Positions 162 to 18,552 of a stretch of DNA of 64,000 bases are shown in pieces. Source of the stretch: Ancylobacter tetraedralis (GTDB taxonomy: Bacteria > Pseudomonadota > Alphaproteobacteria > Rhizobiales > Xanthobacteraceae). The DNA lies in assembly GCF_014195655.1 (NCBI RefSeq), contig NZ_JACICD010000002.1, positions 1 through 64,000 on the forward strand. Reading direction: 5' to 3'. Within the stretch, counting starts at the first letter, position 1. Every line of letters begins with the position of its first letter. The notes beneath the pieces were generated by a model that ran no database searches, had not been told where the DNA came from, and saw only the letters and a list, made by a program, of their open reading frames with translations. The position numbers and the translations under genes are program-made.

Positions 162-1973
162 TCACGGCGCCGGCTGACCCTCGAGCGCGGCAAGGCACGG
201 GGACGGCGCCCCCTCCTCCGGCGTCGCGCAGAGGCCGAGACGCCCCAGCCAGCGCCCGAGCGCCGGCTCGGAGGTGAGCACCGCGAAGGGCACGGCACTC
301 ACGAGGCCGATCAGCACCGGCAACGCCCAGATGAGGGCGGCCGGCACGGCGGCGGCGAGGATGCCGGCTATGGCCGCGCCGAACACCAGCTGCGGCCATA
401 GCCCGGCAAGGGCGGTGCGCCACGACAGCCGTACGGCATCGCGGGCCTGCGCGTCCCACGTCACCGTCCGGCCGAAGGCGAGGCCCACCATGAAGATCGC
501 CACCCGCAGCGCGACGACGGGGCCCAGCAGAACGGAGAATACCAACTCCAGAAACGCGCCGCCGAGCAGACGGCCGGTGCCGCCATAGCGCCGTCGCTCG
601 CCCGGCCGCAGCAGCACGTCGATCAGCCCGGCAATCTTCGGCGCAAGGCTCAGCAGGAAGGTTATCGCGAACAGGGTGAGCCCCAGCCCGGCCGGGAACG
701 GCTCATCAAGCCGCTCGGTGTCGAACGCCTTCAGCGCCGCGAGAACCATGAAGGCGATCCAGGCCAGCGCGCCGACATACATCAGCATCGCCCAGGCGAT
801 CTGGAAGCGGCTCATCGGCAACAGCCCGGGCATGGCGATGAGGCGCCAGTACTGCATGTTGCCCTGGCACCAGCGCAGGTCGCGGCGGGTGAACTCGGTC
901 AGGTGCGGCGGGTTTTCCTCATAGCTCTCGCTCTCCTCCGGCAGTACCCGCACCTCATAGCCGGCGCGGCGCATCAGCACCGCCTCGATCTGGTCATGCG
1001 AGAGCACGTCACCCGCGAGCGGGCCGCGCCCCGGCAGCACCGGCAAGGCGCAGTGCGCCTTGAACGGCGCGATGCGGATCACCGCATTGTGCCCCCAATA
1101 GGGTCCGCAATCCCCCGCCCACCACGACGCCCCCATCGTGTAGGAGCGCATGCCGTGGCGCATGCCGAACTGGAAGATGCGCGCGAAGGGCGAGGGCGAG
1201 GGCAGGCCCACGACGAGGCTCTGCAGGATGCCGAGCCGCGGGTTGACCTGCATGATCCGAACGAGCCGCAGGACGCTGGCGGCGCCCATCAGGCTGTCGG
1301 CATCCAGCACCAGCATCAGATCGTGATCATCGCCCCAGCGTTCGAGAAAATCGCGGATATTGCCCGCCTTGAAGCCTTGATTGTCGCTGCGGCGGCGGTA
1401 GTGCAGCGGCGCGCCCGCGCCGATCTCCGCACGCCAGGCCGCGACGATCGCTTCCTCCTGCGCGGCGATATCGGCGCGGGTCGTATCGGAGAGCACGAAC
1501 CAGGCGAAATGGCCGCCGGCACCCGCGCGCGCAAGGTCCTCCCACATCACCCGCAGACGAGCGATGGCGCGCGCGGGATCCTCGTTGCGCAGGGTCATCA
1601 CCACCGCGACGCGGGCGGTGATCGGCGCGTCCTTCGGCGCCTTGCCCGCATAGGGAAAGACCGAAAGGCGCGGATCGCCCGGTCCGTGCAGCAGCCAGAG
1701 GCCGATCGCCGCGTTCCAGAAGCCGAGGATGGTCCACGGGGTGGAGAGGCAGAAGGCCAGCAGCAGCAGCCCGTCCAGCAGGGTGAAGCCGCCATGGGCC
1801 AGCAAGCGGGTGAACAGCGCGAGGAGGGCGAAAAAGGTCGCCGCGTTGAGCACCGCGACCAGCCGGCGCCGACGGAAGAGCTGCCGGCGGGACTGCACGC
1901 CGGTCGGCGTCAGATCGCCGGCGGCGCCGGCACGGGCGAACAGGCGTTCTACGGGCTTTTCATTCACGCTCAT
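162..1973 (-). CDS. opgH: glucans biosynthesis glucosyltransferase OpgH/MdoH
   Basis: This 603-residue inner-membrane family 2 glycosyltransferase polymerises beta-glucan backbones from UDP-glucose for osmoregulated periplasmic glucans. Two membrane segments lie at about residues 35-80, followed by a cytoplasmic catalytic domain with a DADSLM metal-binding motif and the acceptor-site stretch RRDLRWCQGNMQY, then several further membrane segments to the C-terminus. At about 600 residues it is shorter than the enterobacterial protein (about 850) but normal for alphaproteobacteria. I chose the ATG at 1973 (MSVNEKP); a GTG three codons upstream is also possible. The usual partner opgG is not beside it in this window. 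It is divergent from the dehydrogenase gene at 2125. Confidence 0.9.
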   Translation of the reverse strand: MSVNEKPVERLFARAGAAGDLTPTGVQSRRQLFRRRRLVAVLNAATFFALLALFTRLLAHGGFTLLDGLLLLAFCLSTPWTILGFWNAAIGLWLLHGPGDPRLSVFPYAGKAPKDAPITARVAVVMTLRNEDPARAIARLRVMWEDLARAGAGGHFAWFVLSDTTRADIAAQEEAIVAAWRAEIGAGAPLHYRRRSDNQGFKAGNIRDFLERWGDDHDLMLVLDADSLMGAASVLRLVRIMQVNPRLGILQSLVVGLPSPSPFARIFQFGMRHGMRSYTMGASWWAGDCGPYWGHNAVIRIAPFKAHCALPVLPGRGPLAGDVLSHDQIEAVLMRRAGYEVRVLPEESESYEENPPHLTEFTRRDLRWCQGNMQYWRLIAMPGLLPMSRFQIAWAMLMYVGALAWIAFMVLAALKAFDTERLDEPFPAGLGLTLFAITFLLSLAPKIAGLIDVLLRPGERRRYGGTGRLLGGAFLELVFSVLLGPVVALRVAIFMVGLAFGRTVTWDAQARDAVRLSWRTALAGLWPQLVFGAAIAGILAAAVPAALIWALPVLIGLVSAVPFAVLTSEPALGRWLGRLGLCATPEEGAPSPCLAALEGQPAP

Positions 1974-2124
1974 GCCGGCCACTCTGATCCGTGCGGGCCG
2001 GTCCCTTGCGGGAGGCCTGTCGGTGCTTGTACGCAGCCGAACGCCGACGGTTCACGCCGTCTCGGATCAAACCGCCGTCCACCCCTGTCGGGAGGGACAG
2101 TGCGGCACGGGAGCAGGGTCCGCA

Positions 2125-3111
2125 ATGCCACATCCGTCTGGGCCATCGGCACGCCAGCTCTGGTGCACGGCGCCCGGGCGCTATGAGATGAGGAGCGCGC
2201 GCCTCGACGACGCGGAACCCGACAGGCTGGTGGTGCGCACCCTCGCCTCCGCCGTCAGCCGCGGCACCGAGCGGCTGGTGCTGCGCGGCGGAATTCCCGC
2301 GAGCGAGCACCAGCGCATGCGCGCGCCGTTCCAGCAGGGCGATTTCCCGTTTCCCGTCCAGTACGGCTACCAGAGCGTGGGGAGGGTCGAGGCCGGTCCC
2401 GGCGAGTGGCTCGGCCGCACCGTCTTCGCCCTCTACCCGCATCAGGATGTCTATCTCCTGCCGCTCGCGGCGGCCATGCCGGTGCCGGAGGGCATCCCCC
2501 CGCAGCGCGCCACGCTGGCGGCGAACATGGAGACTGCCCTCAACGCCCTGTGGGATGCCGGCGCCGGCCCGGGTGATCGCATAACCATTGTCGGCGGCGG
2601 CGTGGTCGGCCTGTTGCTCACCGCCCTCGCCGCAGGCCTGCCCGGCGCGGACGTGACGCTGGTGGACGTCGAGCCCGGCCGGGCCGCGCTGGCGCATCTC
2701 TTCGGCGCCAGCTTCGCCACACCCGGGGAGGTGAACGACGATGCCGACATCGTGTTCCACACCAGCGCCAGCGCGGCCGGCCTCGCCACCGCGCTTTCGG
2801 CCGGCGGCTTCGAGGCGCGGATCGTCGAGGTGAGCTGGTATGGCGACCGCGCGCCATCCATTCCGCTGGGCGAAAGTTTCCACAGCCGGCGCCTGCAACT
2901 GATCGGCTCGCAGGTCGGCGCCGTATCTCCTGTGCGGCGGCCACGCTGGCCGCATGAACGCCGGCTGGCCAAGGCGCTCGCGCTGCTGGACGATGCGCGC
3001 CTCGACCATCTGGTCACGCATGTCGTCCCGTTCGCGCAGGCGCCCGCGCAGCTGCCGCACCTGCTGGCCGACGGGGAGGACGCGCTGGCGATCCTGCTCG
3101 ATTACCGATGA
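2125..3111 (+). CDS. BchC-like medium-chain dehydrogenase lacking zinc ligands
   Basis: A 328-residue MDR-superfamily oxidoreductase. It resembles the 2-desacetyl-2-hydroxyethyl bacteriochlorophyllide dehydrogenase (BchC) branch: SRGTE at residues 45-49, MRAPFQQGDFPFPVQYGYQS at about 65-84, then a Rossmann motif GGGVVG near 157-162. Where zinc alcohol dehydrogenases carry the catalytic Cys and His, this protein has Ser (SRGTE) and Tyr (GYQ), so it is probably zinc-independent. The ATG at 2125 has GGAG 11 bases upstream and gives an N-terminus in register with the family; a longer open frame runs back into opgH on the other strand but is not coding. The stop overlaps the next start (ATGA), so it is translationally coupled to the PTPS-like gene. 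No photosynthesis genes are nearby, so a bacteriochlorophyll role is unlikely and the substrate is unknown. Confidence 0.8.
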   Translation: MPHPSGPSARQLWCTAPGRYEMRSARLDDAEPDRLVVRTLASAVSRGTERLVLRGGIPASEHQRMRAPFQQGDFPFPVQYGYQSVGRVEAGPGEWLGRTVFALYPHQDVYLLPLAAAMPVPEGIPPQRATLAANMETALNALWDAGAGPGDRITIVGGGVVGLLLTALAAGLPGADVTLVDVEPGRAALAHLFGASFATPGEVNDDADIVFHTSASAAGLATALSAGGFEARIVEVSWYGDRAPSIPLGESFHSRRLQLIGSQVGAVSPVRRPRWPHERRLAKALALLDDARLDHLVTHVVPFAQAPAQLPHLLADGEDALAILLDYR

Positions 3112-3521
3112 GGAAAGCCATGTATTGTGTCGAAGTCCGCGATCGCATCATGATCGCCCATTCGCTGCCCGATCCGTTCTTCGGCCCGGCCCAGGGCCTG
3201 CACGGCGCGACCTTCGTGGTCGATGTCGCCTTCCTGCGCGAGAGGCTGACGACCAAGAACGTGGTGGTGGATATCGGCGCCGCGCTCGACGTGCTCAAGA
3301 CCACGCTCAAGCCGCTCGCCTACCAGAATCTCGACACGCTGCCCGCCTTTGCCGGCCAGCTCACCACCACCGAGTTCCTCGCCAAGTACATTTTCGACGC
3401 CATGGCCGCCGCCGCCCGGGACGGCGCGCTGGGCGAGGACGGGCACGGCCTGTCGGCGATCCGCGTCACCCTGCACGAGACCGACCTCGCCAGCGCCAGC
3501 TTTGAGGCTGGCCTCGATTGA
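3108..3521 (+). CDS. 6-pyruvoyl-tetrahydropterin synthase/QueD-fold protein, divergent active site
   Basis: A 137-residue protein with the T-fold layout of the PTPS/QueD family: MIAHSLPDPFFG near residues 15-26, LHGATF at 31-36, VVVDIGAALDVLK at 52-64, TTTEFLAKYIFD at 86-97 and a C-terminal LHETDLA at 122-128. The pterin-anchoring Glu (E124) and two zinc-type His (H18, H32) are present. The second His of the HGH motif is Ala34, the catalytic Cys before it is absent, and the Asp-His catalytic pair (LDH in the family) is Ala71-Tyr72. It therefore probably binds a pterin-like ligand but cannot do the normal reaction in the normal way. It overlaps the dehydrogenase stop by ATGA and is followed 8 bases later by the glycosyltransferase gene. 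Confidence 0.8.
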   Translation: MRKAMYCVEVRDRIMIAHSLPDPFFGPAQGLHGATFVVDVAFLRERLTTKNVVVDIGAALDVLKTTLKPLAYQNLDTLPAFAGQLTTTEFLAKYIFDAMAAAARDGALGEDGHGLSAIRVTLHETDLASASFEAGLD

Positions 3522-3529
3522 GGCCCGCG

Positions 3530-4621
3530 ATGAGCGGCTTCGTCTTCGCCATTCCCGGCGCGCTCGATCTCCCCACCGGGGGCTATGCCTATGACCGCCG
3601 GGTGATCGACGAATGCCGGCGCGCCGGCGGCGCGGTGACGCATCTCGCTCTCCCCGGCGGGTTTCCCTTCCCCACGCCGGACGAGTTGCAGACGAGCGCG
3701 CGGATGCTGGCCGCCCTGCCGGCCGGGCAGCCCGTGCTGATCGACGGGCTCGCCCTGGGCGCACTGCCGGCCGACCTGCTGCGCGGCCTGCGCCACCCCA
3801 TCGCCGCGCTGGTCCATCATCCGCTGGCGCTGGAAGCCGGGTTGGGCGAGGGGCAACGCGCCGCGCTTCACACCAGCGAGCGGGCGGCGCTGGCGCAGGC
3901 GAGCGCCGTCATCGCCACCAGCCCCGCGACCGCTCGCCGGCTGCAGCAGGACTATGGCGTCGCCCCCGACCGAATGGCCATCGCGCGGCCCGGCACCGAC
4001 CCCGCGCCCCGCGCGCGCGGGACCTCTTCGCGGGGAACGGGCCAGCCGGTGCGGCTCCTCAGTGTCGGGGCGGTAATCCCGCGCAAGGCCCACGGCGTGC
4101 TGGTCGATGCGCTGGCCCGGCTGGCGGCGCGGGACTGGACCTGCCACATCGTCGGCGCCACCGACCGCGATGCCGAGGAGACGCGCGCCGTGCAGGCGCG
4201 CATTGCCGCGCAGGGGCTGGGCGGGCGCATCGAGTTGACTGGATCGATCCCGCCGGACGCGCTCGCCCGGCACTTCGACGCGGCCGACATCTTCATCTCG
4301 GCGTCGCTGTTCGAGGGCTATGGAATGGGCCTGAGCGAGGCGCTCGCCTGCGGCCTGCCGATCGTGGCGAGCCGCGCCGGGGCGATCCCGGACACCGTGC
4401 CGGCGGCGGCGGGACTACTGGTCACCCCCGGTGACAGCGAGGGCCTCGCCGGCGCGCTCGGGGCGCTGCTGGACGCGCCGGAGCGGCGGCGCCAGATGGC
4501 GGAGAGCGCGTGGCACCACGCGCAGACCCTCCCACGATGGCCACAGACGGCGGCAATCATCCTGGAAACCTTGCAGACATTATCGCGGCAGACTTTATCC
4601 CGACAGGAGAACTCCCGATGA
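3530..4621 (+). CDS. GT4-family glycosyltransferase
   Basis: A 363-residue GT-B fold glycosyltransferase. The C-terminal donor-binding half carries SVGAVIPRKAHG (about 178-189) and the EX7E motif FEGYGMGLSE (E262, E270), typical of family 4 retaining enzymes using nucleotide sugars. The N-terminal acceptor half is short and has no signal peptide or membrane helix, so it should be cytoplasmic. I start at ATG 3530 (MSGFVFAIPG), 8 bases after the previous stop; an upstream TTG gives four extra residues. The C-terminus has a small duplication, TLSRQTLSRQ. The stop overlaps the methyltransferase start by ATGA. The setting suggests a small metabolite acceptor, possibly the pterin-like product, but donor and acceptor are unknown. 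Confidence 0.85.
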   Translation: MSGFVFAIPGALDLPTGGYAYDRRVIDECRRAGGAVTHLALPGGFPFPTPDELQTSARMLAALPAGQPVLIDGLALGALPADLLRGLRHPIAALVHHPLALEAGLGEGQRAALHTSERAALAQASAVIATSPATARRLQQDYGVAPDRMAIARPGTDPAPRARGTSSRGTGQPVRLLSVGAVIPRKAHGVLVDALARLAARDWTCHIVGATDRDAEETRAVQARIAAQGLGGRIELTGSIPPDALARHFDAADIFISASLFEGYGMGLSEALACGLPIVASRAGAIPDTVPAAAGLLVTPGDSEGLAGALGALLDAPERRRQMAESAWHHAQTLPRWPQTAAIILETLQTLSRQTLSRQENSR

Positions 4622-5454
4622 GCGGCTTCTCGGCCGAATGGCTGGCGCTGCGCGAGCCGGTCGATGGTGCCTCGCGCAACCCGGAAATTGCCGCGCGGGT
4701 CCGCCAGTATTTCAACAGCCGTTCCTCGCTCACCGTGGTCGATCTGGGCTGCGGCACCGGCTCGAACCTGCGCGCGCTCTCACCCTCGCTGCCGCCCGGC
4801 CAGCGCTGGCACCTGATCGACGGCGATCGCGACCTGCTGCTTGCCGCGCGCCAATGCCTCACGGACTGGGCCGACCGCGCCCGCCCGAGCGGCAGCGGCC
4901 TCGCGCTGGAAAAGGATGGCCGCCGCATCGAGGTCCGTTTCGAATGCGCCAACCTGACCGTGCGCAGCCTGGATTTCGGCGCGGACGGGGCGGATCTGGT
5001 GACGGCGGCCGCGCTGTTCGACCTCGTCTCCCGCGCCTGGCTGAAGCGCCTCATGGCCGCCCTCGCCGGCCGGCGCGTGCCGCTCTATGGCGTGCTGAGC
5101 TATGACGGCGTGGCGGACTGGCAGCCGGCAAGTCCAATCGACACGGCGGTGACGGCCGCGTTCAACCGCCACCAGCGCGGCGACAAGGGGTTCGGCCCGG
5201 CGCTCGGCCCCGCGGCGGGCCCGACACTGATGCGGCTGGCGCCGCGGCACGGCTATGCCGCCTGGGCGGGCGACAGCCCCTGGCGGCTGACTCACGAGAA
5301 CGCCTCGCTCATCGCCGCCCTCGCCAACGGCATGGCCGCGGCGGCAGGCGAAATCGAGCCGGCGCGGCAGGCGGCCTTCACGGCATGGGCCGAAGCGCAG
5401 GCGACAGCTGAGGCGGTCACGATCGGCCATCAGGACGTGTTCGCCCACCCCTGA
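4618..5454 (+). CDS. class I SAM-dependent methyltransferase
   Basis: A 278-residue protein with SAM-binding motif I at VVDLGCGTGSN (residues 40-50), the acidic post-I stretch HLIDGDRDLL, and a Rossmann-type remainder. The ATG at 4618 is preceded by AGGAGA nine bases upstream and overlaps the glycosyltransferase stop, the third tight junction in this block, so these four + strand genes are one operon. The methyl acceptor is unknown; the position in the block suggests it modifies the same compound as the glycosyltransferase. It ends 34 bases before the convergent cytochrome b gene. Confidence 0.85.
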   Translation: MSGFSAEWLALREPVDGASRNPEIAARVRQYFNSRSSLTVVDLGCGTGSNLRALSPSLPPGQRWHLIDGDRDLLLAARQCLTDWADRARPSGSGLALEKDGRRIEVRFECANLTVRSLDFGADGADLVTAAALFDLVSRAWLKRLMAALAGRRVPLYGVLSYDGVADWQPASPIDTAVTAAFNRHQRGDKGFGPALGPAAGPTLMRLAPRHGYAAWAGDSPWRLTHENASLIAALANGMAAAAGEIEPARQAAFTAWAEAQATAEAVTIGHQDVFAHP

Positions 5455-5488
5455 GGCGGGCAATCCGAAAGCCGCTCGCCGACGCGCC

Positions 5489-6061
5489 TCAGCCCGGCGG
5501 CCACATGCGCGCCATCACGCCGTCCTGCTTGAGGAAGCGGTGGCGCAGGGCGGCGGCGATATGAACGAGGGCGATCGCCGCCAGAGCCAGCGCCAGCAGC
5601 TTGTGGACCCCGAGAATGCGGTTCGCCAGCGCCTCGTCGGGCGGCAGGATGGCCGGCAGGTTGAACAGGCCGAACACGTCGAGCGCGGGATAGGCGGAGA
5701 CCCCGGCCCAGCCCAGCAGCGGCACGATGAGGAGGAGCAGATACAGCGCCCCATGCACCGCGTGCGAGGCGGTACGCTCGAACGGCGTCAGCGTCGCGAC
5801 GGGCGGCGGCGCCCCCCGTCGCAGCCGCACCAGCACCCGCAGCACGATAAGCCAGAGCACGAGGAATCCGAGCAGCTTGTGCAGGCTGTAGAGCGAGCCG
5901 GTGACGGCATCGAAATTGGTCGCCTCGCCACGGGCGACCATGTAGAGCCCGAGAGGAACGAGGCACAGGATGAATGCGGCGATCAGCCAGTGCAGCCGCC
6001 GCGCGGCGGGGCTGTAGCGGGCCGGGCCGGGCCCGGCACTGGAGCCATCAGAGACCGACAT
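5489..6061 (-). CDS. cytochrome b561-type membrane protein
   Basis: A 190-residue four-helix di-haem cytochrome b. Candidate haem-ligating His residues sit in RRLHWLIA near the N-terminus, SLHKLLGFL, HAVHGALYLLLL, and in the last helix GVHKLLALALAAIALVHIAAA. The family moves electrons between the quinone pool and periplasmic or small-molecule partners. The start ATG at 6061 overlaps the end of the RibD-like gene by 14 bases, so the two are co-transcribed and probably translationally coupled. That coupling to a reductase-like gene is unusual and hints at a redox role for the product of this locus, though cytochrome b561 genes also occur alone in this group. Confidence 0.85.
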   Translation of the reverse strand: MSVSDGSSAGPGPARYSPAARRLHWLIAAFILCLVPLGLYMVARGEATNFDAVTGSLYSLHKLLGFLVLWLIVLRVLVRLRRGAPPPVATLTPFERTASHAVHGALYLLLLIVPLLGWAGVSAYPALDVFGLFNLPAILPPDEALANRILGVHKLLALALAAIALVHIAAALRHRFLKQDGVMARMWPPG

Positions 6062-6773
6062 GCGTCCCTCCTCGGGCAGCACTGCGCAGATCGCAATCGT
6101 AGAGGATGTTGCCGTCGTCGAGAAGATAGACATGGGCGCGCGGACGCAGCGCGTCGTCAAGTTCGTCGATGGGCCTGAGGTCGAGGCCCGGCCGGCCCGA
6201 GCCGAGGATGATCGGGGCGAGGCACACATGCAGGCGATCGACCAGCCCGGCATCGATGAACCGCGAGATGGTCGACGCCCCGCCCTCGACCAGAATGGTG
6301 TGATGACCGCGCGCCGTCAGCGCGGCGAGCAGCCGGGTCGGCTCGAACAGGTCGGGATCGTCCTGGGTGCCGATGCGCTCGACCTCTTCCGGCCATCCCA
6401 CCGCATTTTCCGAGAACACAATGCGGTGACAACCATCGGCCTGCAGCCATTTGGAATCGCGCGGCGAGCGGCCGGTGCGGTCGATGACGGCGCGCACCGG
6501 GCTGCGGCCCGGAACCCGCCGCGTGGTGAGCTGGGGATCGTCGGCCAGCACGGTGCCGACGCCGACGACCACCACATCGACCAGCGCCCGCAGCCGGTGC
6601 AGATGATCGAGCCCCGAGCACCCGTTGATATCGCGCGACTTTCCCGTGGGCGTGGCGATGCGCCCATCCAGCGATTGCCCCAGCTGGGCGATGACGAAGG
6701 GCGATCTTTCATGCCGGAGGATCGGCTCGTAGAGAGCGGAAAGCGGATCGATCGGTACTTCGCGTCGATTCAA
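6048..6773 (-). CDS. RibD C-terminal-domain (dihydrofolate-reductase-like) protein
   Basis: A 241-residue single-domain protein of the RibD_C/DHFR-like superfamily. Visible signatures are FVIAQLGQSLDGRIAT (about 26-41), VVVVGVGTVLADDPQLTTR (about 67-85) and the nucleotide-binding TILVEGGASTISRFI. The deaminase domain of bifunctional RibD is absent, so it would reduce a preformed pyrimidine or pterin rather than act as full RibD. No ATG is in frame: a TAG lies eight codons upstream, and the best start is TTG at 6773 with GGGAG six bases before it. It shares an overlap with the cytochrome b gene and faces the dehydrogenase / PTPS-like / glycosyltransferase / methyltransferase operon; together they look like one pathway. 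Confidence 0.8.
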   Translation of the reverse strand: MNRREVPIDPLSALYEPILRHERSPFVIAQLGQSLDGRIATPTGKSRDINGCSGLDHLHRLRALVDVVVVGVGTVLADDPQLTTRRVPGRSPVRAVIDRTGRSPRDSKWLQADGCHRIVFSENAVGWPEEVERIGTQDDPDLFEPTRLLAALTARGHHTILVEGGASTISRFIDAGLVDRLHVCLAPIILGSGRPGLDLRPIDELDDALRPRAHVYLLDDGNILYDCDLRSAARGGTHVGL

Positions 6774-7689: not shown

Positions 7690-8889
7690 TCACGCCCGCC
7701 GCTCGCCTCTTTGCAGAACCAGCGACCAGCCGAACAGCACCGCCGCGGCCAGCACCGTGACGATGGCGGCCGCGATCAGCGCCCAGGCGCCATGCGCATA
7801 GATCAGCCCGCCGATCGCCGGCCCGGTGGAAAGGCCGAGCTTGGAGGCGAAGCCCGCCAGCACCGCCGAGCGCCCGCTCGCATCGCCCTCGGCGCAGAGC
7901 GCGAAGGCATAGGGCAGCGCCATCGCCATGGTGAAGAACACCGCCGCGATGGCGCCGGCAAACAGCGCCGGATCCTGCCCCAGCCCGATCAGCGCCTTGC
8001 TCAGCCCCGCGGCCAGCACCACCGCCACGAGGGGCCGCCATCCGAAGAGCCGGCTGAGCAGCAGCATCGCGAGGGCACCCGGCACGCCGGCCCAGAGGCC
8101 GAACCCGACGGCGCCACCGGAAAAGCTCGCCGCATGGCCGAAATCGGCGCCGATGCCGATCAGGAAGGCGCCGAGACCGAGATTGGCCGCCTGAAACAGG
8201 AACAGGCCGCCGATGCACAGGAGATTGCGCCGGGGGATGCGTGCGGGAATTCCCCCGCCCGCGTTCGCCGGCCGGGCGCCCGGCTGCGGCACGTCGAATG
8301 CCGGCAGCAACGGCACCACGGCGAGCGCCAGCACGCCGAAGGCGGCGAGCACCAGGAACACCATGCCGTGCGTCATGTAGGGGGCGAGGAAGGTGGAGGC
8401 GAAGACGCCAATGCCGCCAAAGCCGAAATGGAACAGGAACAGCACGCCGAAACCCTGGCGCGAATCGGCGCTGCGGGCGATCAGCCCATAGCATAGGCCG
8501 ACCAGCAGGCCGCCGATCACCCCGTGCGCGGCCCGCACCATCACCAGCGCCTCGTAGCTGCGCACGCCGGTGGTGGCGACGTCGGCGGCGATCAGCCCGA
8601 TCAGCAGGCCGACCGCCAGCGGCCGCCAGGGCAGGCGCGGCACGATGAACAGCGCGAGCAGCGCACCGAATGTCGAGCCATAGCCGTTGCTGGCGGCGAC
8701 GAAGCCGGCCTGCATCGCATCGAGCCCGTATTCGGCCCGCAGCGCGGCCACGATCGAGGGCATGATGTCGATATACAAAGGCCCGGCCATGGCCAGCAGC
8801 GCCAGCAGCATCGCGATGCGCAGCCCGCCCGGCCGCTGCTCCGGCCGGGTCCCGGGTGCCGAGGAGGTAAAGTCCGTCAATGCCGCCAT
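7690..8889 (-). CDS. MFS transporter
   Basis: A 399-residue polytopic membrane protein with about 12 hydrophobic segments in two halves, typical of major facilitator drug or metabolite exporters. Examples are IAMLLALLAMAGPLY near the N-terminus and the glycine-rich helices VIGGLLVGLCYGL and GLWAGVPGALAMLLL. No substrate motif is recognisable. I use ATG 8889; a GTG at 8937 has a better-spaced GGAG and would add 16 residues, so the start is uncertain. It is divergent from the large wHTH/NB-ARC regulator at 9036 across a short shared promoter region, which suggests the regulator may control it. Confidence 0.82.
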   Translation of the reverse strand: MAALTDFTSSAPGTRPEQRPGGLRIAMLLALLAMAGPLYIDIMPSIVAALRAEYGLDAMQAGFVAASNGYGSTFGALLALFIVPRLPWRPLAVGLLIGLIAADVATTGVRSYEALVMVRAAHGVIGGLLVGLCYGLIARSADSRQGFGVLFLFHFGFGGIGVFASTFLAPYMTHGMVFLVLAAFGVLALAVVPLLPAFDVPQPGARPANAGGGIPARIPRRNLLCIGGLFLFQAANLGLGAFLIGIGADFGHAASFSGGAVGFGLWAGVPGALAMLLLSRLFGWRPLVAVVLAAGLSKALIGLGQDPALFAGAIAAVFFTMAMALPYAFALCAEGDASGRSAVLAGFASKLGLSTGPAIGGLIYAHGAWALIAAAIVTVLAAAVLFGWSLVLQRGERRA

Positions 8890-9035
8890 TCTCCGGATGT
8901 GCCCCAATCCATCGTCCCCGTCGATAAACCAGATCACCTCCGCTCCAAAGCCCGGTCGCGCGGTTTGTTTCCCGTTGATCCCGATACCAGTATGATAAGG
9001 ATGCGGCGGCCGAACAGGCCTCCCCCGGATTGTTC

Positions 9036-11930
9036 ATGAAACCTGTCTCCCGCGCCGCGCAGTTCGGTCCTTTCCGCCTCAACCTGTCCTCGAAGCAGCT
9101 GCACCGGGACGGCGTGCCCGTTCCCATGGGCGGGCGGGCGCTCGAACTGCTGGTGGCCTTGATCGAGCATGCCGGAGAGGTCGTCTCCAAGCAGGAACTT
9201 CTGGCCCGCGCCTGGCCGGACCTGTTCGTGGAAGAAGCCAATCTGCGGGTGCAGATGACCGCGCTCCGGCGCGTGCTCGGCGACGGCCAGGACGGGCGGC
9301 ACTTCATCACCAACATCGCGCGCCGCGGCTACAGCTTCGTGGCCGATGTCACCTTCACGGACATTGCCTCCACCGACACCACCTCCACCAATGCCGGCGC
9401 GCGCGAGGCCACGGGCGATCCGGTCATCCGCCAGAACCTGCCGTTCAACCTGACGACGGTGCTGGGACGCGAGGCCACCGTGGCGGCGATCGGCGAGGAG
9501 CTTGCCCGATCACGGTTCGTGAGCGTGGTCGGTCCGGGCGGTGTCGGCAAGACCACGGTCGCGCTCGACGTGGCGCGGGCCGCGCTGGGGCGGGAGGGCG
9601 CGGAGGCGCTGGAGGCGGTCGTGCTGGTGGAGCTGGCGCCGATCACCGACCCGGCGCTGGTGGAAAACGCGGTGGCGTCCGCCATCGGCATGACTCTGGG
9701 AACCGTGCCGCTGCGGCTCGACGAGCCGCTGCCCTTCGAGCGCGGGCTGCTGATCCTCGACAATTGCGAGCATGTTGTGGCTGCGGCCGCCTCCCTGGCT
9801 GAACTGGCGCTCGCCGCCAATCCCGCGCTGAAGCTTCTCGTCACCAGCCGCGAGCCGCTCCGGGCGCGGGGCGAGCACGTCTACCGGCTGCAGGGACTGG
9901 AAGTGCCCCCGCGCGAGGCCGACGGCACGCGCGCCGACCTGCTGCGCTACCCCGCCGCGCGCCTGTTCGTGGAACGCGCGGCCGCCACGCTGGGCAGCTA
10001 CATGCCGGCGCCGGACGAGATCGCCGATATTGTCGCGATCTGCCGTCGCCTGGACGGTCTGCCGCTCGCCATCGAACTGGCCGCGGGGCGGGTCGATGCC
10101 TTCGGCGTCAAGGGCCTGGCGCAGCGGCTGGACGATGTCTTCCGCCTGCTGGTGGCGGGTCGACGCACCGCGCTGCCCCGCCACCAGACGCTGCAGGCGA
10201 TGCTGGGCTGGAGCTATGACCATCTGAGCCCGGGCGAGCAGATCACGCTGGGGCGGCTCGCCATCTTTGCCGGCCATTTCTCGCTCGATGCCGCCGGCAA
10301 GGTCGCCTCGATCGAGGAGGCGAGCTGGGAGACCATCGAGAACCTTACCAGCCTGGTGGCGAAATCGCTCGTCGCCGCCGATTTCTCGCAGCCGGTGCCG
10401 CGCTATCGCCTGCTCGAAATCACCCGCGCCTACGCACTGGAGCGGCTGAAGGAAGCGGGCGGCCTCGACCGGCTGAGCGGGCGCCACGCCGCCTACATGA
10501 AGGAACTGATCGCCACCGCCGAGCAGGAATGGCCGCGCGCGCAGCCTGCCCAGTGGCTCGCCACCTATGCCGGCCAGCTCGACAATGTGCGCGCCGCGCT
10601 GGACTGGAGCTTCGGACCGAAGGGCGACCGCGAGATCGGCACCGCGCTCATCATCTCTTCGGCGACGCTGTGGTTCCAGCTGTCGCTGCTGACCGAATGC
10701 CGCGCCCGCTTCGAGCACGCGCTCGCCAGCCTCGGCGACGGCCCGCCGCTCGATGCCCCCCGCGAGGTGGCGCTGCTCACCACACTCGGCACCGCTCTGG
10801 TCTACACGATCGGCCCCGGTCCGAAGGCGGAAGAGCCGTTGCAAAGGGCCTGCAGAATCGCGCGCGCGAATGGTAGCGTCGAGCTTCAGCTCCGGGCGGC
10901 CTGGGCGCTGTGGGCGCTGACATTCTGTTCCGCCCGCTACGCCGCCGCGCTGGAGATCGCACGCGATTTCGCCGCGCTCGCCGCCACCATCGGGGACATG
11001 ACGCAAGCCGCCGACCTCATCATTGCCAACCGCCTCGCCGGCGTCTCGCTGCTGTTCCTCGGGCGTGTCGAGGAGGCGCGGGTGGCGCTGGAGGCGGCGC
11101 TGGGCGGCGGCACAGCGGCGAATGCGATCGTGCGCATGCAGTATGATCAGGAGATGAACGGGCGCGCCTTCTATTCGGCGAACCTTTATCTGCTCGGCCT
11201 GCAGGATCAGGCGTCGGCGCTCGCCAGCCGCAACACCACCGATGCCCGCGCGCGCGGGCACGCCACGACGCTGGCGCTCAACCTCGTGGATTCCGGCTGT
11301 CCCGTCGCCTTCTATTGCGGCGAGGCCGATGCCCTGGCGGAGCGGCTGGACCTCTTGGCCGACGTCTCCGGCCGGCATCCATTCGGCCCGTGGCGCGCCT
11401 GGTGGCGGTGCTATCGCGGCTCGCTTCATCTCCTGCATGGCGCATTTTCCCCGGCCGCCGAGGATCTGGCGGCGGGAATCGAGGCGCTGGAGCAGACCGG
11501 CTGGCCCATCCGCCGGGCGATGTTCCTCGGCCTTCATGCGCAGGCGCTGCACGGGCTCGGACGCGGTGCAGAGGCGCGGGTCCGCGCCGAGGAGGCGATC
11601 GGCTTCAGTCGGGCGACCGGCGAGGGCTGGATCCTGCCGGAACTGCTGCGCATCCGTGCCGGCATCGACGCCACCGAGCGGCCGCAGGCGGCGCTGGCGA
11701 GCCTCGACGAGGCCTGGGACCTCGCGCAGCGAACCGGCCTGCGCTCCTGGGCCTTGCGCGCCGCGACGGCGGCGGCACGGCTGGCACCCCATGAGCGCCG
11801 CCTCGGGCAGCGCCTGAGCGAGACCCTGGCCGAGTTCAGCGAGAGCCACGCCAAGCCCGACTATCGCATGGCCCAGCATGTCATGACCCGGCATGTGCTC
11901 GACGCGCTGGGCCAGCACCCGCCGGCGTGA
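9036..11930 (+). CDS. wHTH / NB-ARC ATPase / TPR-like transcriptional regulator
   Basis: A 964-residue multidomain regulator. Residues about 5-105 form an OmpR-type winged helix (FGPFRLNLSSKQLHRDG, ELLVALIEHAGEVVSKQELL, RRGYSFVADV) without a receiver domain. An AP/NB-ARC-type ATPase follows, with Walker A GPGGVGKTT near 170 and Walker B LLILDNCEH, then LLVTSREPLRARGEH and GLPLAIELAAGR. The last 450 residues are alpha-helical repeats of TPR style rich in Ala and Leu pairs. Such proteins are signal-integrating activators in proteobacteria. The start is ATG 9036; an in-frame TTG two codons earlier also exists. It faces a DUF1028 gene 22 bases from its end and is divergent from an MFS transporter, its most likely target. 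Confidence 0.88.
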   Translation: MKPVSRAAQFGPFRLNLSSKQLHRDGVPVPMGGRALELLVALIEHAGEVVSKQELLARAWPDLFVEEANLRVQMTALRRVLGDGQDGRHFITNIARRGYSFVADVTFTDIASTDTTSTNAGAREATGDPVIRQNLPFNLTTVLGREATVAAIGEELARSRFVSVVGPGGVGKTTVALDVARAALGREGAEALEAVVLVELAPITDPALVENAVASAIGMTLGTVPLRLDEPLPFERGLLILDNCEHVVAAAASLAELALAANPALKLLVTSREPLRARGEHVYRLQGLEVPPREADGTRADLLRYPAARLFVERAAATLGSYMPAPDEIADIVAICRRLDGLPLAIELAAGRVDAFGVKGLAQRLDDVFRLLVAGRRTALPRHQTLQAMLGWSYDHLSPGEQITLGRLAIFAGHFSLDAAGKVASIEEASWETIENLTSLVAKSLVAADFSQPVPRYRLLEITRAYALERLKEAGGLDRLSGRHAAYMKELIATAEQEWPRAQPAQWLATYAGQLDNVRAALDWSFGPKGDREIGTALIISSATLWFQLSLLTECRARFEHALASLGDGPPLDAPREVALLTTLGTALVYTIGPGPKAEEPLQRACRIARANGSVELQLRAAWALWALTFCSARYAAALEIARDFAALAATIGDMTQAADLIIANRLAGVSLLFLGRVEEARVALEAALGGGTAANAIVRMQYDQEMNGRAFYSANLYLLGLQDQASALASRNTTDARARGHATTLALNLVDSGCPVAFYCGEADALAERLDLLADVSGRHPFGPWRAWWRCYRGSLHLLHGAFSPAAEDLAAGIEALEQTGWPIRRAMFLGLHAQALHGLGRGAEARVRAEEAIGFSRATGEGWILPELLRIRAGIDATERPQAALASLDEAWDLAQRTGLRSWALRAATAAARLAPHERRLGQRLSETLAEFSESHAKPDYRMAQHVMTRHVLDALGQHPPA

Positions 11931-11951: not shown

Positions 11952-12683
11952 CTATGCGGGACCGCTGCCGCCGCCACCGGGCCGGGCGGGTGGCGGCAGC
12001 GCGAGCATCGCGGTAACGGCTGCCGGAGCCGGGCCGGGCGAACCGCCGCGCCGCGGCATGCCGTCCACGAAGGGCACCAGCTGCAGCCGTGCGATCTCCA
12101 GCACCCGGCGCAGCTCGGCCACCGGCGCGGCATGCTCGTCGACCCTGACATCGAGGGCGGGATAGAACTCGGTGCTGTAAACGCACAGGCTGGCCGATTG
12201 CCGGCCGCGTCGGTCGCCGCCGGCGGCATCGCCCGCCTCCAGCGCGCGCATCAGCCGCTCGTCGAGCGGGGCGCCTTCCGAGGCGCGGTAGGCGGCGGCC
12301 ATGGCGGCGATCACCTCCGGGCCGGTGAGCATGTTGCCCTGCACCGTGAACCCGTCGCCGACCTCATGCCCGAACCAGGGCGTGCATTCCGTCCCCGACC
12401 AGGCGGCGACCCGCCCCATGGCGTCGACCATGCCGATCTGCCGCAACTCCCGCCCGTCATCCTGCGCCATCACGGCGGCGAGCGCTTCGGGCGCGGATTG
12501 GCCTCGGGCAAGGCGCTCCAGCCCATCGAGGGCGAGATAGGGATTGACCCAGGATTGCGTGGAGACTGCGCCGACCCCGGCCCGCACGAACGGGCACATG
12601 GAGCCCACGGCCGGCACCGCGGTGGCGACAGCGACACCAAGGCGGAAGCTGGTGGGGCAGCGGGCGACGATGGAAAAGGTCAT
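11952..12683 (-). CDS. DUF1028 family protein (Ntn-hydrolase-like)
   Basis: A 243-residue protein beginning MTFSIVARCPTSFRLGVAVA, with GVGAVSTQSWVNPYLA and VQGNMLTGPEVIAAM, the conserved landmarks of DUF1028. This family is predicted to have an N-terminal-nucleophile hydrolase fold and often lies beside amide or peptide catabolism genes; its reaction is not established. It is the last gene of the nitrilase/ABC transporter operon, 17 bases after the second ATPase gene. The C-terminal 30 residues are Pro/Gly rich and probably disordered. A role in hydrolysing an amide-type substrate brought in by the transporter is an inference from position. Confidence 0.82.
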   Translation of the reverse strand: MTFSIVARCPTSFRLGVAVATAVPAVGSMCPFVRAGVGAVSTQSWVNPYLALDGLERLARGQSAPEALAAVMAQDDGRELRQIGMVDAMGRVAAWSGTECTPWFGHEVGDGFTVQGNMLTGPEVIAAMAAAYRASEGAPLDERLMRALEAGDAAGGDRRGRQSASLCVYSTEFYPALDVRVDEHAAPVAELRRVLEIARLQLVPFVDGMPRRGGSPGPAPAAVTAMLALPPPARPGGGGSGPA

Positions 12684-12699
12684 GCTCTCGCTCCCGCGC

Positions 12700-13424
12700 T
12701 CACACGCTCAGATGTTTCAGCACGCGCGCGCGGGCATCCGGCTCGCTCGACGCGCCGGCCTCGGCAATCTCGCCGCGGTCGAGCACCGCCCAGCGGTCGG
12801 CCACCGCCAGCGCGAAGGGCAGATGCTGCTCGACCAGGAGCATGGTCGTGCCGTGGCGCTCGCGGGCGCTGCGGATGACGCCGGCCAGCCGGTCGATCAC
12901 CGAGGGCTGCAACCCCTCGGTGATCTCGTCCACCAGCAGCAGCCGGGCGCCCGTGGCCAGCGAGCGGGCCATGAGCAGCATTTTCTGCTCGCCGCCCGAG
13001 AGCGTGCCGGCGCGCTGCTTCAGCCGTTGCAGCAGGAAGGGGAAGGAGGCCTCCACCTCGGCCAGCGCGGCCGCGAAATCCGGCCCGCGCACGGCGAGCT
13101 TCAGGTTCTCCTCCACGGTGAGGTCCTGGAACAGCGCCTTTTCCTGCGCGACATAGCCGACCCCCAGCCGCGCCACCCGGTGCGGGGAGAGCCGCGTCGC
13201 CGCGGTGCCGGCGATGGTCACGCTGCCGGCCATCTTGGGCAGGAAACCCATCATCGCCTTGAGCAGGGTCGATTTGCCCATGCCGTTCTTGCCGAGCACC
13301 GCGAGGATCTCGCCCGCGCCGATGGCAAGGCTGACCTCCCGCACCACCACGGCGCCGGCATAGCCGCTGGAGAGGCCGGCGACCTCGAGCGCCGGAGCGT
13401 GATGCGTGTCCACGTGAGGCGTGA

Positions 13425-13428
<4 letters not shown>
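12700..13428 (-). CDS. ABC transporter ATP-binding protein, LivF/UrtE type
   Basis: A 242-residue ATPase with Walker A LGKNGMGKST, signature LSGGEQKMLLM and Walker B LLLVDEITEGLQP, followed by the switch His in LLVEQHLPFAL. The Q-loop region reads YVAQEKALF. It matches the second ATPase of branched-chain amino acid/urea/amide importers. The ATG overlaps the stop of the permease-ATPase fusion gene (ATGA), so the two are coupled. Together with the fusion, the LivH-like permease and the periplasmic binding protein it completes a HAAT-type importer. Confidence 0.9.
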
Positions 13429-15261
<1,833 letters not shown>

Positions 15262-15269
<8 letters not shown>

Positions 15270-16098
15270 GGGCGAACCCCTTCGGGCGGATGCGCAGGAT
15301 CACCGCGGCCAGCACGGCGATGGTGAGCCCGCCAAGCACCGGGCTGAAATGGGTGGCGACCAGAACCTGCGCCCCGCCCAGCACGAGGCAGGCGACCAGC
15401 AGGCTGAGCAGCGAGGCGCCGGACACCAGCACCAGCATGAAGGCGTTCACCAGCCAGGGCACGCCCATGTTCGGATCGACGCTGGACAGCGGTGTGATGA
15501 GCGCGCCCGCCACCCCGGCCAGCGCCGCGCCGAGCGTGAAGGTGAGAAAGCGCACCAGTGCGCTGTTGATGCCGAGGCCGCGCGCCAGATCCTCGTTCAT
15601 GATGACGGCCCGCGTCTCCAGCCCCAGCCGCGTGCCCTGCAACAATGCGGTGAGCGCGAGGCCAAGCGCGGCGGCGATGCCCACCAGCGCGAGGCGATAG
15701 GCGGAATAGCTCTCGCCGAACAGATCCAGCGTGCCCGAGAGCGGCGCCTGCGTGAACTGCACGCCGCGCCCGAAGGCGATGGTGATGACCTGCCCGATGA
15801 TGATCGACAGCCCCCAGGTGGCGAGGATGGCGTCGAGCGGGCGGGCATAGAGCGGGCGCACCACGAAGCGCTCGATGGCCATTCCCGCGACGCCGCCGAA
15901 CAGCGCCGCGACGGGAATCGCGAGCCAGGGATTCCACCCCGCCTGGGTGGTGACGAGCGCGGCATAGCCGCCGAGCGTCATCAGCCCCCCATGGGCGAAG
16001 TTGATGATCTTCATCACCCCGAACACGAGCAGCAGCCCGGTCGCCACCGCATAGAGGATGGCCGCGGTGGTCACGATGTCGAGCGTCTGGGCAATCAT
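15262..16098 (-). CDS. ABC transporter permease, LivH/UrtB type
   Basis: A 278-residue inner-membrane permease of the branched-chain amino acid family, with about eight hydrophobic segments. The family motif GVMKIINFAHGGLMTLGGYA lies near residues 26-46, and EDLARGLGIN marks the coupling-helix region after residue 140. It overlaps the start of the fused permease/ATPase by 8 bases. It pairs with the LivM-type half of that fusion to form the translocation channel. Confidence 0.92.
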
Positions 16099-16215
16099 CG
16101 GATGTCCTTGGGAGCCAAAGGCACGTCACCTCCGAGGCGGGCAGGCGCCGGGCCGGGGCGGATGAACCGCACCAGCCCGGCGGGCCGCGTCAGATCCGGC
16201 TAAACGTCAGCCGAC

Positions 16216-17400
16216 TCACTTCAGCTTCGGGCACTGCTCGCCGGGATCGACGTCCTTGAAGCTGGACATGATCGCCACCGAGCCGTCGGCCTTCACCTGG
16301 CCGAGATACATGGTGAGCGGCGCATGGCGCTGCTTGTTCATGACGATGGTGCCCCGCGGGCCCTCCACCGCGACCTCGGCGAGCGCGGGGATCACCTTGG
16401 CGGCGTCCGTCGTGCCGGCCTTCTCGACCGCTGCCTTATAGGCATAGATGGCCTCGTATTCCGGCACCGACAGGTCGTTCGGGGTCTTCAGGTCCTTGCC
16501 GAACTTCGTCTCCATCGCCGCGAGGAAGGCCTTGTTGGCCGGCGTGTCGATATTGGTGAAGTAGGATCCGGCGATGTAGATGCCCTCGGCGTCGCTGCCC
16601 ATGCTCTTGGCGGTGCCCTCATCGACGGCGAGGTTGCCGTAGAGCGCCTTGATGCCCGCCGCGCGCAGCTGCTTGGTCAGCGTCACGTTGGGAGCGCCGC
16701 CGGCGGTGGAGGTGATGATGGCATCGGGATTGGCCGCCTTCACCTTGGAGAGGATGGCGGTCCAGTCCGTGGCATCCATCGGCGCGTACTCGTCGCCGAC
16801 GATCTTGCCGCCGGTCTTCTCGATATAGTCCTTGGTGAAGGCCAGCATGCCGCGACCGAAGGCGTAGTCCGAGCCGATCAGGAAATAGGTCTTGGCGCCT
16901 TCCTTCTTGAAGAAGTCGACGATGGGGGCGACCTGCTGGTCCGGCACCCAGGCATTGACATACATGAACGGCGAGCAGGAGCGGCCTTCATAGAAGGACG
17001 TGTAGATGTAGGGCACCTTGCCGCGATTGACGATCGGCAGGCCGGCATTGCGCGCCGCCGAGGTCTCCATCGAGATCAGCACGTCGACCTTCTTCTGGAA
17101 GATCAGCGAATCGAAGGCCTTCTGCGCGCCAGCGGCACCGGACGCGTCGTCCGCCACTTCCAGCACGACCTTCTTGCCGAGGATGCCGCCCTTGGCGTTG
17201 ATTTCCTCGACCGCGAGTTCGGCCGACTGGACGACCGAGGGGGCCACCACCGAATTGGCGCCGGAAAGGCCGACCGGGATGCCGATGGTGACGGTGTCGG
17301 CGGCGAGCGCCGGGCCGCCGAGGAGGCCGGCCGCGAGAGCGCCGGCCATCAGCAGGCGACGATGCGGAATGCGCAGGGTGGAAATGGCTCTAGTGGACAT
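16216..17400 (-). CDS. periplasmic substrate-binding protein, LivK/amide type
   Basis: A 394-residue secreted binding protein. The signal peptide covers about residues 1-34: a twin Arg-like basic start, the hydrophobic LLMAGALAAGLLGG, and cleavage after PALA. The mature part has the two-lobe type I periplasmic binding fold: VTIGIPVGLSGANSV, AELAVEEINAKGGILGKKV, and FFKKEGAKTYFLIGSDYAFG. It lies between the nitrilase-family gene and the permeases, 117 bases upstream of the LivH-type permease, and so supplies the ligand for this importer. The AmiC-like sensor encoded at 19204-20361 has the same fold but no signal peptide. Confidence 0.92.
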   Translation of the reverse strand: MSTRAISTLRIPHRRLLMAGALAAGLLGGPALAADTVTIGIPVGLSGANSVVAPSVVQSAELAVEEINAKGGILGKKVVLEVADDASGAAGAQKAFDSLIFQKKVDVLISMETSAARNAGLPIVNRGKVPYIYTSFYEGRSCSPFMYVNAWVPDQQVAPIVDFFKKEGAKTYFLIGSDYAFGRGMLAFTKDYIEKTGGKIVGDEYAPMDATDWTAILSKVKAANPDAIITSTAGGAPNVTLTKQLRAAGIKALYGNLAVDEGTAKSMGSDAEGIYIAGSYFTNIDTPANKAFLAAMETKFGKDLKTPNDLSVPEYEAIYAYKAAVEKAGTTDAAKVIPALAEVAVEGPRGTIVMNKQRHAPLTMYLGQVKADGSVAIMSSFKDVDPGEQCPKLK

Positions 17401-17451
17401 GGCTCTGTTCTCCGGAAGGTTATCGTTATGGTGGAGGAAGCCGCGGCGGGG

Positions 17452-18321
17452 TCAGTACCAGCCGCGAGGGATGTCGGCGCCGAGCATCTCGGCGTAGACG
17501 TCGGTGCGGCGGTCGCGCAGCACCTGGTTGAAGGCGTTCCAGTTGCGGTCGCGCCGCGCGGCGCCGAGGTCGATCTCGGCGGAGACGATTTCCTCAGCGT
17601 CGCGGCTGGCGGGGCCGGCGGCGGGCCAGCCGGTATGTCCGACAATCAGGCTCTGGCCCTCGAAGGGCTGGCCGCGCTCGGTACCGATGCGGTCGGCGCA
17701 GGCGATGTAGAGCGAGTTGGAATGGGCGGCGGCCATGGCGAGAATGTTGGCCATCGCCTCGCGCCCCTCGGCCTGGCCGGGGATCGGCACCCAGTTGGTC
17801 GGCACGCAGACGATGTCGGCGCCCTGCAACGCCTGCAGGCGATAGGTCTCGGGGAACCAGCCGTCGTAGCAGATGGCGACGCCGATGCGCCCGAGCGCGG
17901 TCTGGAACACCGGGAAGCCGTTATTGCCCGGCTCGAAGAACAGGTGCTCGTTGCCCCACAGGTGCATCTTGCGATAGGTGCCGATATACCCCTCGGGACC
18001 GATCACCACGGCGCTGTTGTAGAGCGCGTTACCCTCACGCTCGGTGATGCCGGCCACGATGTGCAGGCCGCGCGCGGCGGCGATCTCGATCCACGCGGTG
18101 GAGGTCGGGCCGTCGGGAATGGTCTCGGCGAGGGCGAAGGCCTCCGCGCGGGTCTCGAACACGTAGCCGGTATTGGCGAGCTCGGGCAGCACGATGAGGG
18201 TAGCCCCGCCATCCGCCGCCTTCGCGATCAGGTCGAGGCTGTGCGCGACATTGGCGGCGGTGTCGCCGAGGCGCGGCTCCATCTGGATGCAGGCGACGCG
18301 GACAAGACTGGAACTCGGCAT
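17452..18321 (-). CDS. nitrilase-superfamily carbon-nitrogen hydrolase
   Basis: A 289-residue cytoplasmic hydrolase with the full Glu-Lys-Cys triad: E47 in VLPELANTG, K118 in YRKMHLWG and C151 in GVAICYDGWFPE. The family hydrolyses nitriles, amides or carbamoyl groups; which one applies here is not decided by the motifs, but the AmiC/AmiR-like regulators suggest an amidase or nitrilase for a small aliphatic compound. The ATG at 18321 has GGAGAGG nine bases upstream. It is the first gene after the putative antitermination leader and is followed 51 bases later by the binding protein gene, so hydrolase and importer are co-expressed. A second, different family member (aguB-like) lies at 39268-40158. 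Confidence 0.88.
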   Translation of the reverse strand: MPSSSLVRVACIQMEPRLGDTAANVAHSLDLIAKAADGGATLIVLPELANTGYVFETRAEAFALAETIPDGPTSTAWIEIAAARGLHIVAGITEREGNALYNSAVVIGPEGYIGTYRKMHLWGNEHLFFEPGNNGFPVFQTALGRIGVAICYDGWFPETYRLQALQGADIVCVPTNWVPIPGQAEGREAMANILAMAAAHSNSLYIACADRIGTERGQPFEGQSLIVGHTGWPAAGPASRDAEEIVSAEIDLGAARRDRNWNAFNQVLRDRRTDVYAEMLGADIPRGWY

Positions 18322-18362
18322 CTGGGCACACCTCTCCGGGCGCCGCGGTCGCCCGCGTCGCG

Positions 18363-18406
18363 AAACAAAAAGCCCCCGGCAGCGTCTTCCGACGCCATCG
18401 AGGGCT
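18363..18406 (-). terminator. intrinsic terminator in the leader of the nitrilase operon
   Basis: Read on -, a stem begins AGCCC, has an inner GCGTC/GACGC stem with a GGAA loop, and closes with GGGGCT followed by TTTTTGTTT. It sits about 40 bases upstream of the nitrilase-family start, between the AmiR-like gene and its likely targets. Readthrough would be needed to express the hydrolase and transporter, so it looks conditional, as in the Pseudomonas amidase operon. Confidence 0.8.
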
Positions 18407-18439
18407 GCACAGCCTGAATGTGAAACGGCAACGCTGCCG
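18403..18439 (-). promoter_or_regulatory. candidate ANTAR-binding tandem hairpins (P1 at 18426-18439, P2 at 18403-18414)
   Basis: Read on -, P1 is CGGC-AGCGTT-GCCG: a hexaloop with A at position 1 and G at position 4, the pattern known for ANTAR-protein RNA targets. P2, 11 bases downstream, is GGCT-GTGC-AGCC; opened to a hexaloop it keeps G4 but has T at position 1. The 3' arm of P2 uses bases 18403-18406, which are also the 5' arm of the terminator, so the two structures exclude each other. An additional perfect dyad CGCTTCCC-T-GGGAAGCG lies at 18443-18459 just upstream. Confidence 0.6.
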
Positions 18440-18552
18440 CGCCGCTTCCCAGGGAAGCGATCAGCCATCATGGAAGCGCAGGGCGCCGGCCAAGTCAAGC
18501 GCGATCTGCCGAAGAGAATGGCAGCGCGTGGAGTGCCCATATTATGGGCGGA

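Follow-up and report, generated by a model that had tools for sequence, protein, structure and literature searches.

Gene content of the locus

The window analysed here is a 64,000-nucleotide stretch of Ancylobacter tetraedralis DNA (contig NZ_JACICD010000002.1, positions 1 to 64,000), in which we examined a compact gene block at 2125-6773 that contains a PTPS-fold protein. Four genes follow one another on the plus strand: a medium-chain dehydrogenase of 328 amino acids (ADH, 2125-3111, start at ATG 2125), the PTPS-fold protein (3108-3521; PF01242, 70.3 bits), a GT4-family glycosyltransferase (3530-4621, start at ATG 3530; PF13692, 100.9 bits, and PF00534, 97.8 bits) and a class I S-adenosylmethionine-dependent methyltransferase (MT, 4618-5454). 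Facing them on the minus strand are a RibD_C-type reductase with a TTG start and no deaminase domain (6048-6773; PF01872, 142.7 bits, its sole Pfam family) and a prokaryotic cytochrome b561 of 190 amino acids with an ATG start (5489-6061; PF01292, 99.2 bits). An MdoH/OpgH-type membrane glucosyltransferase gene (162-1982, minus strand; NF003963, 947.4 bits, cut-off 884) is divergent from ADH and, though it lies outside 2125-6773, belongs to the conserved block.

The layout described in the initial annotation, which was made from the letters of the window, is confirmed in the sequence and its open reading frames (ORFs). The ADH/PTPS and GT4/MT pairs each share a 4-bp ATGA overlap, 8 bp separate the PTPS stop from the GT4 ATG at 3530 (a TTG at 3518 is open too), and the RibD_C and b561 genes overlap by 14 bp. 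A longer b561 ORF, up to 6253, runs back into RibD; the PF01292 domain begins at its residue 79.

Conservation of the gene block

The PTPS protein was matched in 89 of the 297 genomes of the order. Across the phylum, 32 of 398 genomes gave a match: 27 were strong (E <= 1e-32), 11 of these lying outside the class, and the other five were weak (E 4.7e-6 or worse) and are not counted in the subfamily described below. Among 72,556 plasmid records there were 20 matches, including Agrobacterium, Palleronia, Thiodictyon, Streptomyces and Microbacterium.

Gene neighbourhoods were scored by tblastn (E <= 1e-6) at 128 loci, numbered L below (genomes are numbered G). They comprise 80 loci kept from a genome_contigs scan that returned 161 PTPS relatives, 8 plasmid regions and 40 genome regions chosen for family diversity; 12 of the 20 plasmid-record matches were fetched, and L195 came without annotation. 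Gene order was counted in the 109 loci with enough flank, and partners in the 102 loci with 7 kb on both sides. Many of the genome_contigs loci come from Ancylobacter and Bosea, close relatives that inflate the locus counts.

The order ADH-PTPS-GT4-MT on one strand is kept in 95 of the 109 loci. The initial annotation had offered a lack of joint conservation as a possible refutation of its reading; the genes are in fact conserved together. Fourteen loci are without the full ordered core (L079, L083, L089, L090, L091, L096, L109, L142, L145, L147, L148, L162, L163 and L172); GT4 is absent between PTPS and MT in two Rhodobacterales records, and MT was not detected in two genomes of the window's own family (L162, L163). 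Beside PTPS, ADH is present in 95, GT4 in 99 and MT in 97 of the 102 loci, and all three together in 93. The core was found in Methylosinus, Agrobacterium, Thiodictyon, Streptomyces and Microbacterium records, spanning Alpha- and Gammaproteobacteria and Actinomycetota. Because its presence in Streptomyces, Microbacterium, Thiodictyon and Agrobacterium is independent of close relatives, the conservation holds despite the inflated counts. As an internal control, the next downstream genes of the window were searched in the 80 genome_contigs loci (tblastn E <= 1e-5); the one encoding an MFS protein (7690-8937) and the one encoding a regulator (9030-11930) turned up in L032 and in no other locus. 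Given this and the kept core order, a chance neighbourhood is rejected. For the four core proteins, pairwise distances across 32 of the 128 loci are correlated (r 0.58-0.77, no species-tree control); none of 999 Mantel permutations reaches the observed values.

Further partners in the 102 loci are MdoH (72), b561 (61), RibD (57), GTP cyclohydrolase II (RibA, PF00925; 47) and an FkbM methyltransferase (46), followed by the rarer CDP-alcohol phosphatidyltransferase (16), a flippase-like protein (13) and creatininase (8). The initial placement of RibD and b561 in the block thus stands for these 57 and 61 loci, and only for that many. Looking upstream from ADH, the first of the scored families to be met is MdoH in 80 of the 128 loci and CDP-alcohol phosphatidyltransferase in 13 (12 divergent, one on the same strand); ADH was not found within reach in 17, and the contig was too short in three. 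A protein of about 350 amino acids with no Pfam or NCBIfam match (L041:4734-5789) has relatives in 37 of the 102 loci, mostly upstream of MdoH.

A divergent and conserved PTPS-IV site

The PTPS-fold protein belongs to its fold family by the PF01242 match, as initially described, and departs from ordinary PTPS and QueD proteins in its motif. PTPS-I proteins such as QueD have the motif CxxxHGH, PTPS-II CxxxxxHGH and PTPS-III ExxHGH (PMC5041015). The window protein meets none of these: its motif reads AQGLHGA, with no Cys and with HGA where PTPS and QueD have HGH. It carries FGPAQ at residues 25-29, the signature of the subfamily named PTPS-IV (PMC5445326). Among 153 distinct complete relatives, HGA, His18 and Glu124 are present in all 153 and HGH in none, while FG.AQ is found in 150, the three deviations at AQ being L070, L101 and L030. 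Glu124 is presumably the pterin-anchoring Glu of PTPS structures. Since the subfamily's own signature is invariant, the site is apparently separate and conserved rather than decayed, which opposes the possibility, raised in the initial annotation, that the PTPS-like gene is inactive.

A single-sequence search found only one solved structure, SCO6650 of Streptomyces coelicolor (PDB 3d7j; E 2.2e-37, residues 5-135), which has the HGA/AQ site in common with the window protein; against the family profile, further PTPS and QueD structures come in at between 1.4e-6 and 0.0066. SCO6650 is said to be without zinc and without PTPS activity. The Streptomyces fungicidicus cluster has ADH-PTPS-GT4-MT in the same order as the window, plus creatininase and RibA. 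Compared with this SCO6650-type cluster (the S. coelicolor genome itself not being part of the comparison), the window has no RibA or creatininase nearby and has MdoH, RibD and b561.

RibA- and RibD-type neighbours (PF00925, PF01872) of PTPS-IV were reported in 2017 in the AGeNNT study (PMC5445326). The window shares FGPAQ and the PF01872 neighbour with the PTPS-IV proteins of that study, and a PF00925 neighbour is seen in 47 of the 102 loci, not at the window's own. The study calls PF00925 GTP cyclohydrolase I/FolE2, whereas the Pfam name is GTP cyclohydrolase II, and the riboflavin-type link is therefore partly hidden. The subfamily, its RibA/RibD neighbourhood and the SCO6650 structure are thus already in print; the account of the PTPS-IV neighbourhood in PMC5445326 does not name ADH, GT4, MT, b561 or MdoH. 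A literature search for a described PTPS-IV function or product found none assigned. To call the block uncharacterised, as was done initially, accordingly holds for function as far as that search went and is too strong as to the SCO6650 structure and the two reported neighbours.

RibD and RibA partners

The RibD of the window has the RibD_C domain alone and falls outside the definition of a riboflavin RibD, which combines deaminase and reductase domains. It is an extra copy: a separate bifunctional RibD of 383 amino acids is encoded elsewhere in the genome (L189; PF00383 and PF01872, passing TIGR00326). The 25 aligned copies of the short form span about 212-284 amino acids. Closest among solved sequences are 6p8c, a 2,5-diamino-6-ribosylamino-4(3H)-pyrimidinone 5'-phosphate reductase (E 1.7e-27), and 2azn, a putative aminouracil reductase. 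Of 30 hand-picked genomes, the window's included, 15 carry PTPS-IV and 15 do not; a close RibD, meaning the window's own or one at 46-57% identity, was found in 7 of the former and none of the latter. Where RibD lies away from PTPS-IV, it adjoins RibA in four genomes (G065, G167, G106 and G100).

The initial annotation had linked the block to GTP-derived compounds through the PTPS and RibD folds, a link strengthened by RibA, the first enzyme of the route from GTP to pyrimidines, as a partner in 47 of the 102 loci (NF006456 over cut-off in L041). Among the order's 297 genomes, 45 of the 52 that carry a long-form RibA have PTPS-IV, against 44 of the 245 that do not carry this form (Fisher p 3.9e-21, uncorrected for phylogeny); long-form here means at least 240 bits, a cut chosen after the list had been seen. 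The seven exceptions, in which a long-form RibA occurs with no PTPS-IV, are G030, G073, G111, G139, G190, G191 and G212. The window's genome holds a RibBA (L113) and a GTP_CH_N/GCH II protein (L112).

Dehydrogenase and methyltransferase

The ADH was initially described as BchC-like. A distant kinship is visible (TIGR01202, 33.7 bits); BchC itself is out of reach at a cut-off of 291.25. The protein also stays below the ADH_zinc_N cut-off (26.7 vs 31.8 bits). An alignment of 30 sequences has an SRGTE-like stretch with invariant S45, G47 and E49, plus G81-Y82, positions at which we take zinc-dependent ADHs to have Cys and His-Glu; the enzyme thus probably has none of the usual zinc ligands. Its AlphaFold model (predicted local distance difference test, pLDDT, 93.6) matches alcohol and polyol dehydrogenases best in Foldseek. 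TarJ, which we assume to be a ribitol-phosphate enzyme, appears at rank 35, too weak a match to be used. The MT has a weaker family match than the other block genes (PF13649, 30.2 bits, cut-off 27); D42, G46 and G48 are invariant among 30 aligned sequences, the model has a class I fold (pLDDT 96.4) and Foldseek returns methyltransferases. For both proteins the structure search points to broad families only.

A candidate pathway from GTP

We consider it reasonably probable that these genes form an operon dedicated to the biosynthesis of a glycosylated and methylated heterocycle derived from GTP, built on a pterin or a pyrimidine precursor. The modified pterin-like metabolite of a single pathway that was initially proposed is favoured by the joint conservation and by the RibA/RibD partners up to a point; the choice of a pterin over a pyrimidine, a single product and the order of the steps go beyond this evidence.

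We infer the reactions and the product as follows. GTP cyclohydrolase II would open GTP to 2,5-diamino-6-ribosylamino-4(3H)-pyrimidinone 5'-phosphate, supplied by the dedicated RibA in many relatives and perhaps by the housekeeping RibBA in the window's genome. The deaminase-less RibD would then reduce the ribosyl to a ribityl group and keep the 2-amino group, as archaeal reductases do, an assignment made because of its domain content and nearest solved relatives. A zinc-free dehydrogenase might next oxidise a side-chain hydroxyl, and the T-fold of PTPS-IV, with its own invariant site, might close or rearrange the ring or side chain. GT4 and MT, judged by family, would add a sugar and a methyl group. 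Finally, MdoH or CDP-alcohol phosphatidyltransferase, with b561, could conceivably link the product to the envelope.

The first steps of archaeal riboflavin synthesis (GTP cyclohydrolase III, the ArfB formamidase and a reductase) share with the block the deaminase-less reductase, so that reduction without prior deamination is possible, and a formamidase-family gene in some clusters. The block differs in having GTP cyclohydrolase II rather than III, and in the extra ADH, PTPS-IV, GT4 and MT. Among scored or annotated block neighbours, we saw no RibB, RibH or CofG/H. Cyanobacterial pterin glycosides belong to a pteridine system with an ordinary PTPS and a GTP cyclohydrolase I supply. The pepteridine cluster (PMC5384830) has a PTPS-fold protein and decorating enzymes in common with the block; clusters of that type use an ordinary PTPS and pterin from GTP cyclohydrolase I, whereas the block has PTPS-IV with RibA/RibD, GT4 and MT.

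A variant of the first step may involve creatininase. Sinorhizobium and Brucella are known to have a creatininase-family formamidase that acts on the formylated product of GTP cyclohydrolase (PMC9478397), and where RibA stops at this product, such an enzyme could finish the reaction. Tyr105 of E. coli RibA corresponds, counted by eye, to the Y of NKIRAY in our RibA alignment. Most of the listed RibAs keep Tyr at this place; the RibA of the S. fungicidicus cluster, with an adjoining creatininase, has Met (KLRAM, read by eye). Creatininase as a marker of a RibA that leaves the formyl group fits only in part, and the link is no more than suggestive.

Several observations weigh against the operon and its formamidase branch. 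No RibD was detected in the S. fungicidicus stretch, which does carry RibA and creatininase. L152, L158, L159 and L161, from other classes of the phylum, and L184 have both Tyr and a creatininase-like gene; at the Tyr105 place, L175, L177 and L182 have Leu, with no creatininase nearby. The window's RibD reaches only 99.6 bits with TIGR01508, the model of the archaeal reductase, whose cut-off is 186.45, and no dedicated long-form RibA was found in the window's genome (best match 37.8 bits). Eight of the 15 hand-picked PTPS-IV genomes have no close RibD anywhere, the best matches lying in frames of 383-456 amino acids, the length of bifunctional RibD, and RibD and RibA both went undetected in 28 of the 102 loci, most of which keep ADH. 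In these genomes and loci the core would therefore either dispense with RibD/RibA or borrow housekeeping enzymes, and borrowed enzymes would deaminate first. No GTP cyclohydrolase that could serve as a replacement supply was seen among the ten flanking proteins of four loci lacking RibA and RibD (L185, L187, L169 and L150). Cytochrome b561 was undetected in 41 of the 102 loci. Finally, Streptomyces L145 and L147, and L172 (one of the G167 copies), carry PTPS-IV with no scored partners.

In L145 and L147, which are Streptomyces plasmids, the lone PTPS-IV gene lies near MEKHLA-domain, cupin, MBL-fold, sigma-70 and BTAD regulator genes in both cases, possibly a second context.

A more specific version of the operon, which we regard as a long shot, would make it a dihydropterin route independent of GTP cyclohydrolase I, leading to a 7,8-dihydroneopterin-type phosphate that GT4 and MT then decorate. 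GTP cyclohydrolase I forms the pterin ring through an internal Amadori rearrangement of the ribose. Here RibD would reduce C1', ADH would oxidise the C2' hydroxyl to a ketone, and PTPS-IV would close the 5-amino group onto this ketone; C1' reduction plus C2' oxidation would equal the Amadori step, and the redox bookkeeping fits on paper. Against this version, ADH is kept where RibA and RibD are missing.

The biosynthetic operon we favour is widespread in common soil, water and plant-associated bacteria, and would point to a metabolite or cofactor made from GTP that has gone unrecognised. The enzyme set is concrete enough for reconstitution from GTP.

Alternative explanations

The substrate might instead be a pterin of the folate route, dihydroneopterin from FolE, modified by PTPS-IV, ADH, GT4 and MT, with the RibD-like protein as a pterin reductase and RibA as a helper in some lineages. 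We find this possible, though doubtful. FolE (PF01227) is present in 29 of the 30 genomes examined, so that dihydroneopterin is available even where RibA and RibD are missing, and DHFR-like folds do reduce pterins. However, a folate-route substrate leaves unexplained both the co-occurrence of RibA/RibD with the core and the pair found in trans in four genomes, and RibD has a diaminopyrimidine reductase as its closest solved relative. No second FolE was found in the 15 PTPS-IV genomes, and G100 has none at all (FolE2-type enzymes were not searched).

Quite improbably, the block could be an envelope-glucan neighbourhood (MdoH, FkbM and GT4) with a PTPS-like protein that is inactive or has a structural role. 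The frequent position of MdoH as the nearest scored family upstream and the absence of the usual zinc site from PTPS-IV would suit this explanation; however, CDP-alcohol phosphatidyltransferase replaces MdoH in 13 loci with an intact core, the invariant signature argues for a kept function, and RibA and RibD would have no explanation.

That the block serves riboflavin or F420 synthesis appears very unlikely, although the RibA/RibD kinship speaks for it and unpublished work mentioned in a 2016 review (PMC5041015) connects PTPS-IV with archaeal F420. A CofG/CofH fusion (FbiC-like, in an 812-aa frame; CofH, 497.1 bits) lies outside the window at G000:C1:892101-894368 and suggests F420 synthesis in this organism. 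CofH is over cut-off, however, in the window's genome alone among the 15 with PTPS-IV, and in none of the 15 others, and we reject F420 as a general role. Riboflavin housekeeping is likewise rejected, the canonical RibD (L189) and RibBA (L113) sitting elsewhere in the genome. We know of no place for a glycosyltransferase or a methyltransferase in either pathway.

We give almost no credence to a queuosine QueD locus, as RefSeq has it in labelling many of these genes '6-carboxytetrahydropterin synthase', several with 'queuosine biosynthetic process': motif and score reject it, with HGH in 0 of 153 PTPS-IV sequences and the window protein at 27.8 bits against a TIGR03367 cut-off of 89.25. A QueC model match in the window's genome (23.4 bits) is nominally over the Pfam cut-off of 22, but covers only positions 2-61 of 210 within a 564-aa frame, which more likely encodes another ATP-binding amidase-type enzyme; this result is only supportive (QueE and QueF were not searched). 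The PTPS gene, often carried in public records as a tRNA-modification enzyme, is thus very probably not one, and the label is doubtful for the PTPS-IV subfamily as a whole.

Other features of the window

Downstream of the block, the regulator gene at 9030-11930 encodes a 966-aa protein whose DNA-binding domain is of the OmpR/CadC type; an ATPase-like match is weak and does not reach its cut-off. Further on, at 11952-18540, a DUF1028 gene stands beside branched-chain amino acid ABC transporter genes (12700-16098), and a carbon-nitrogen hydrolase is encoded at 17452-18540.

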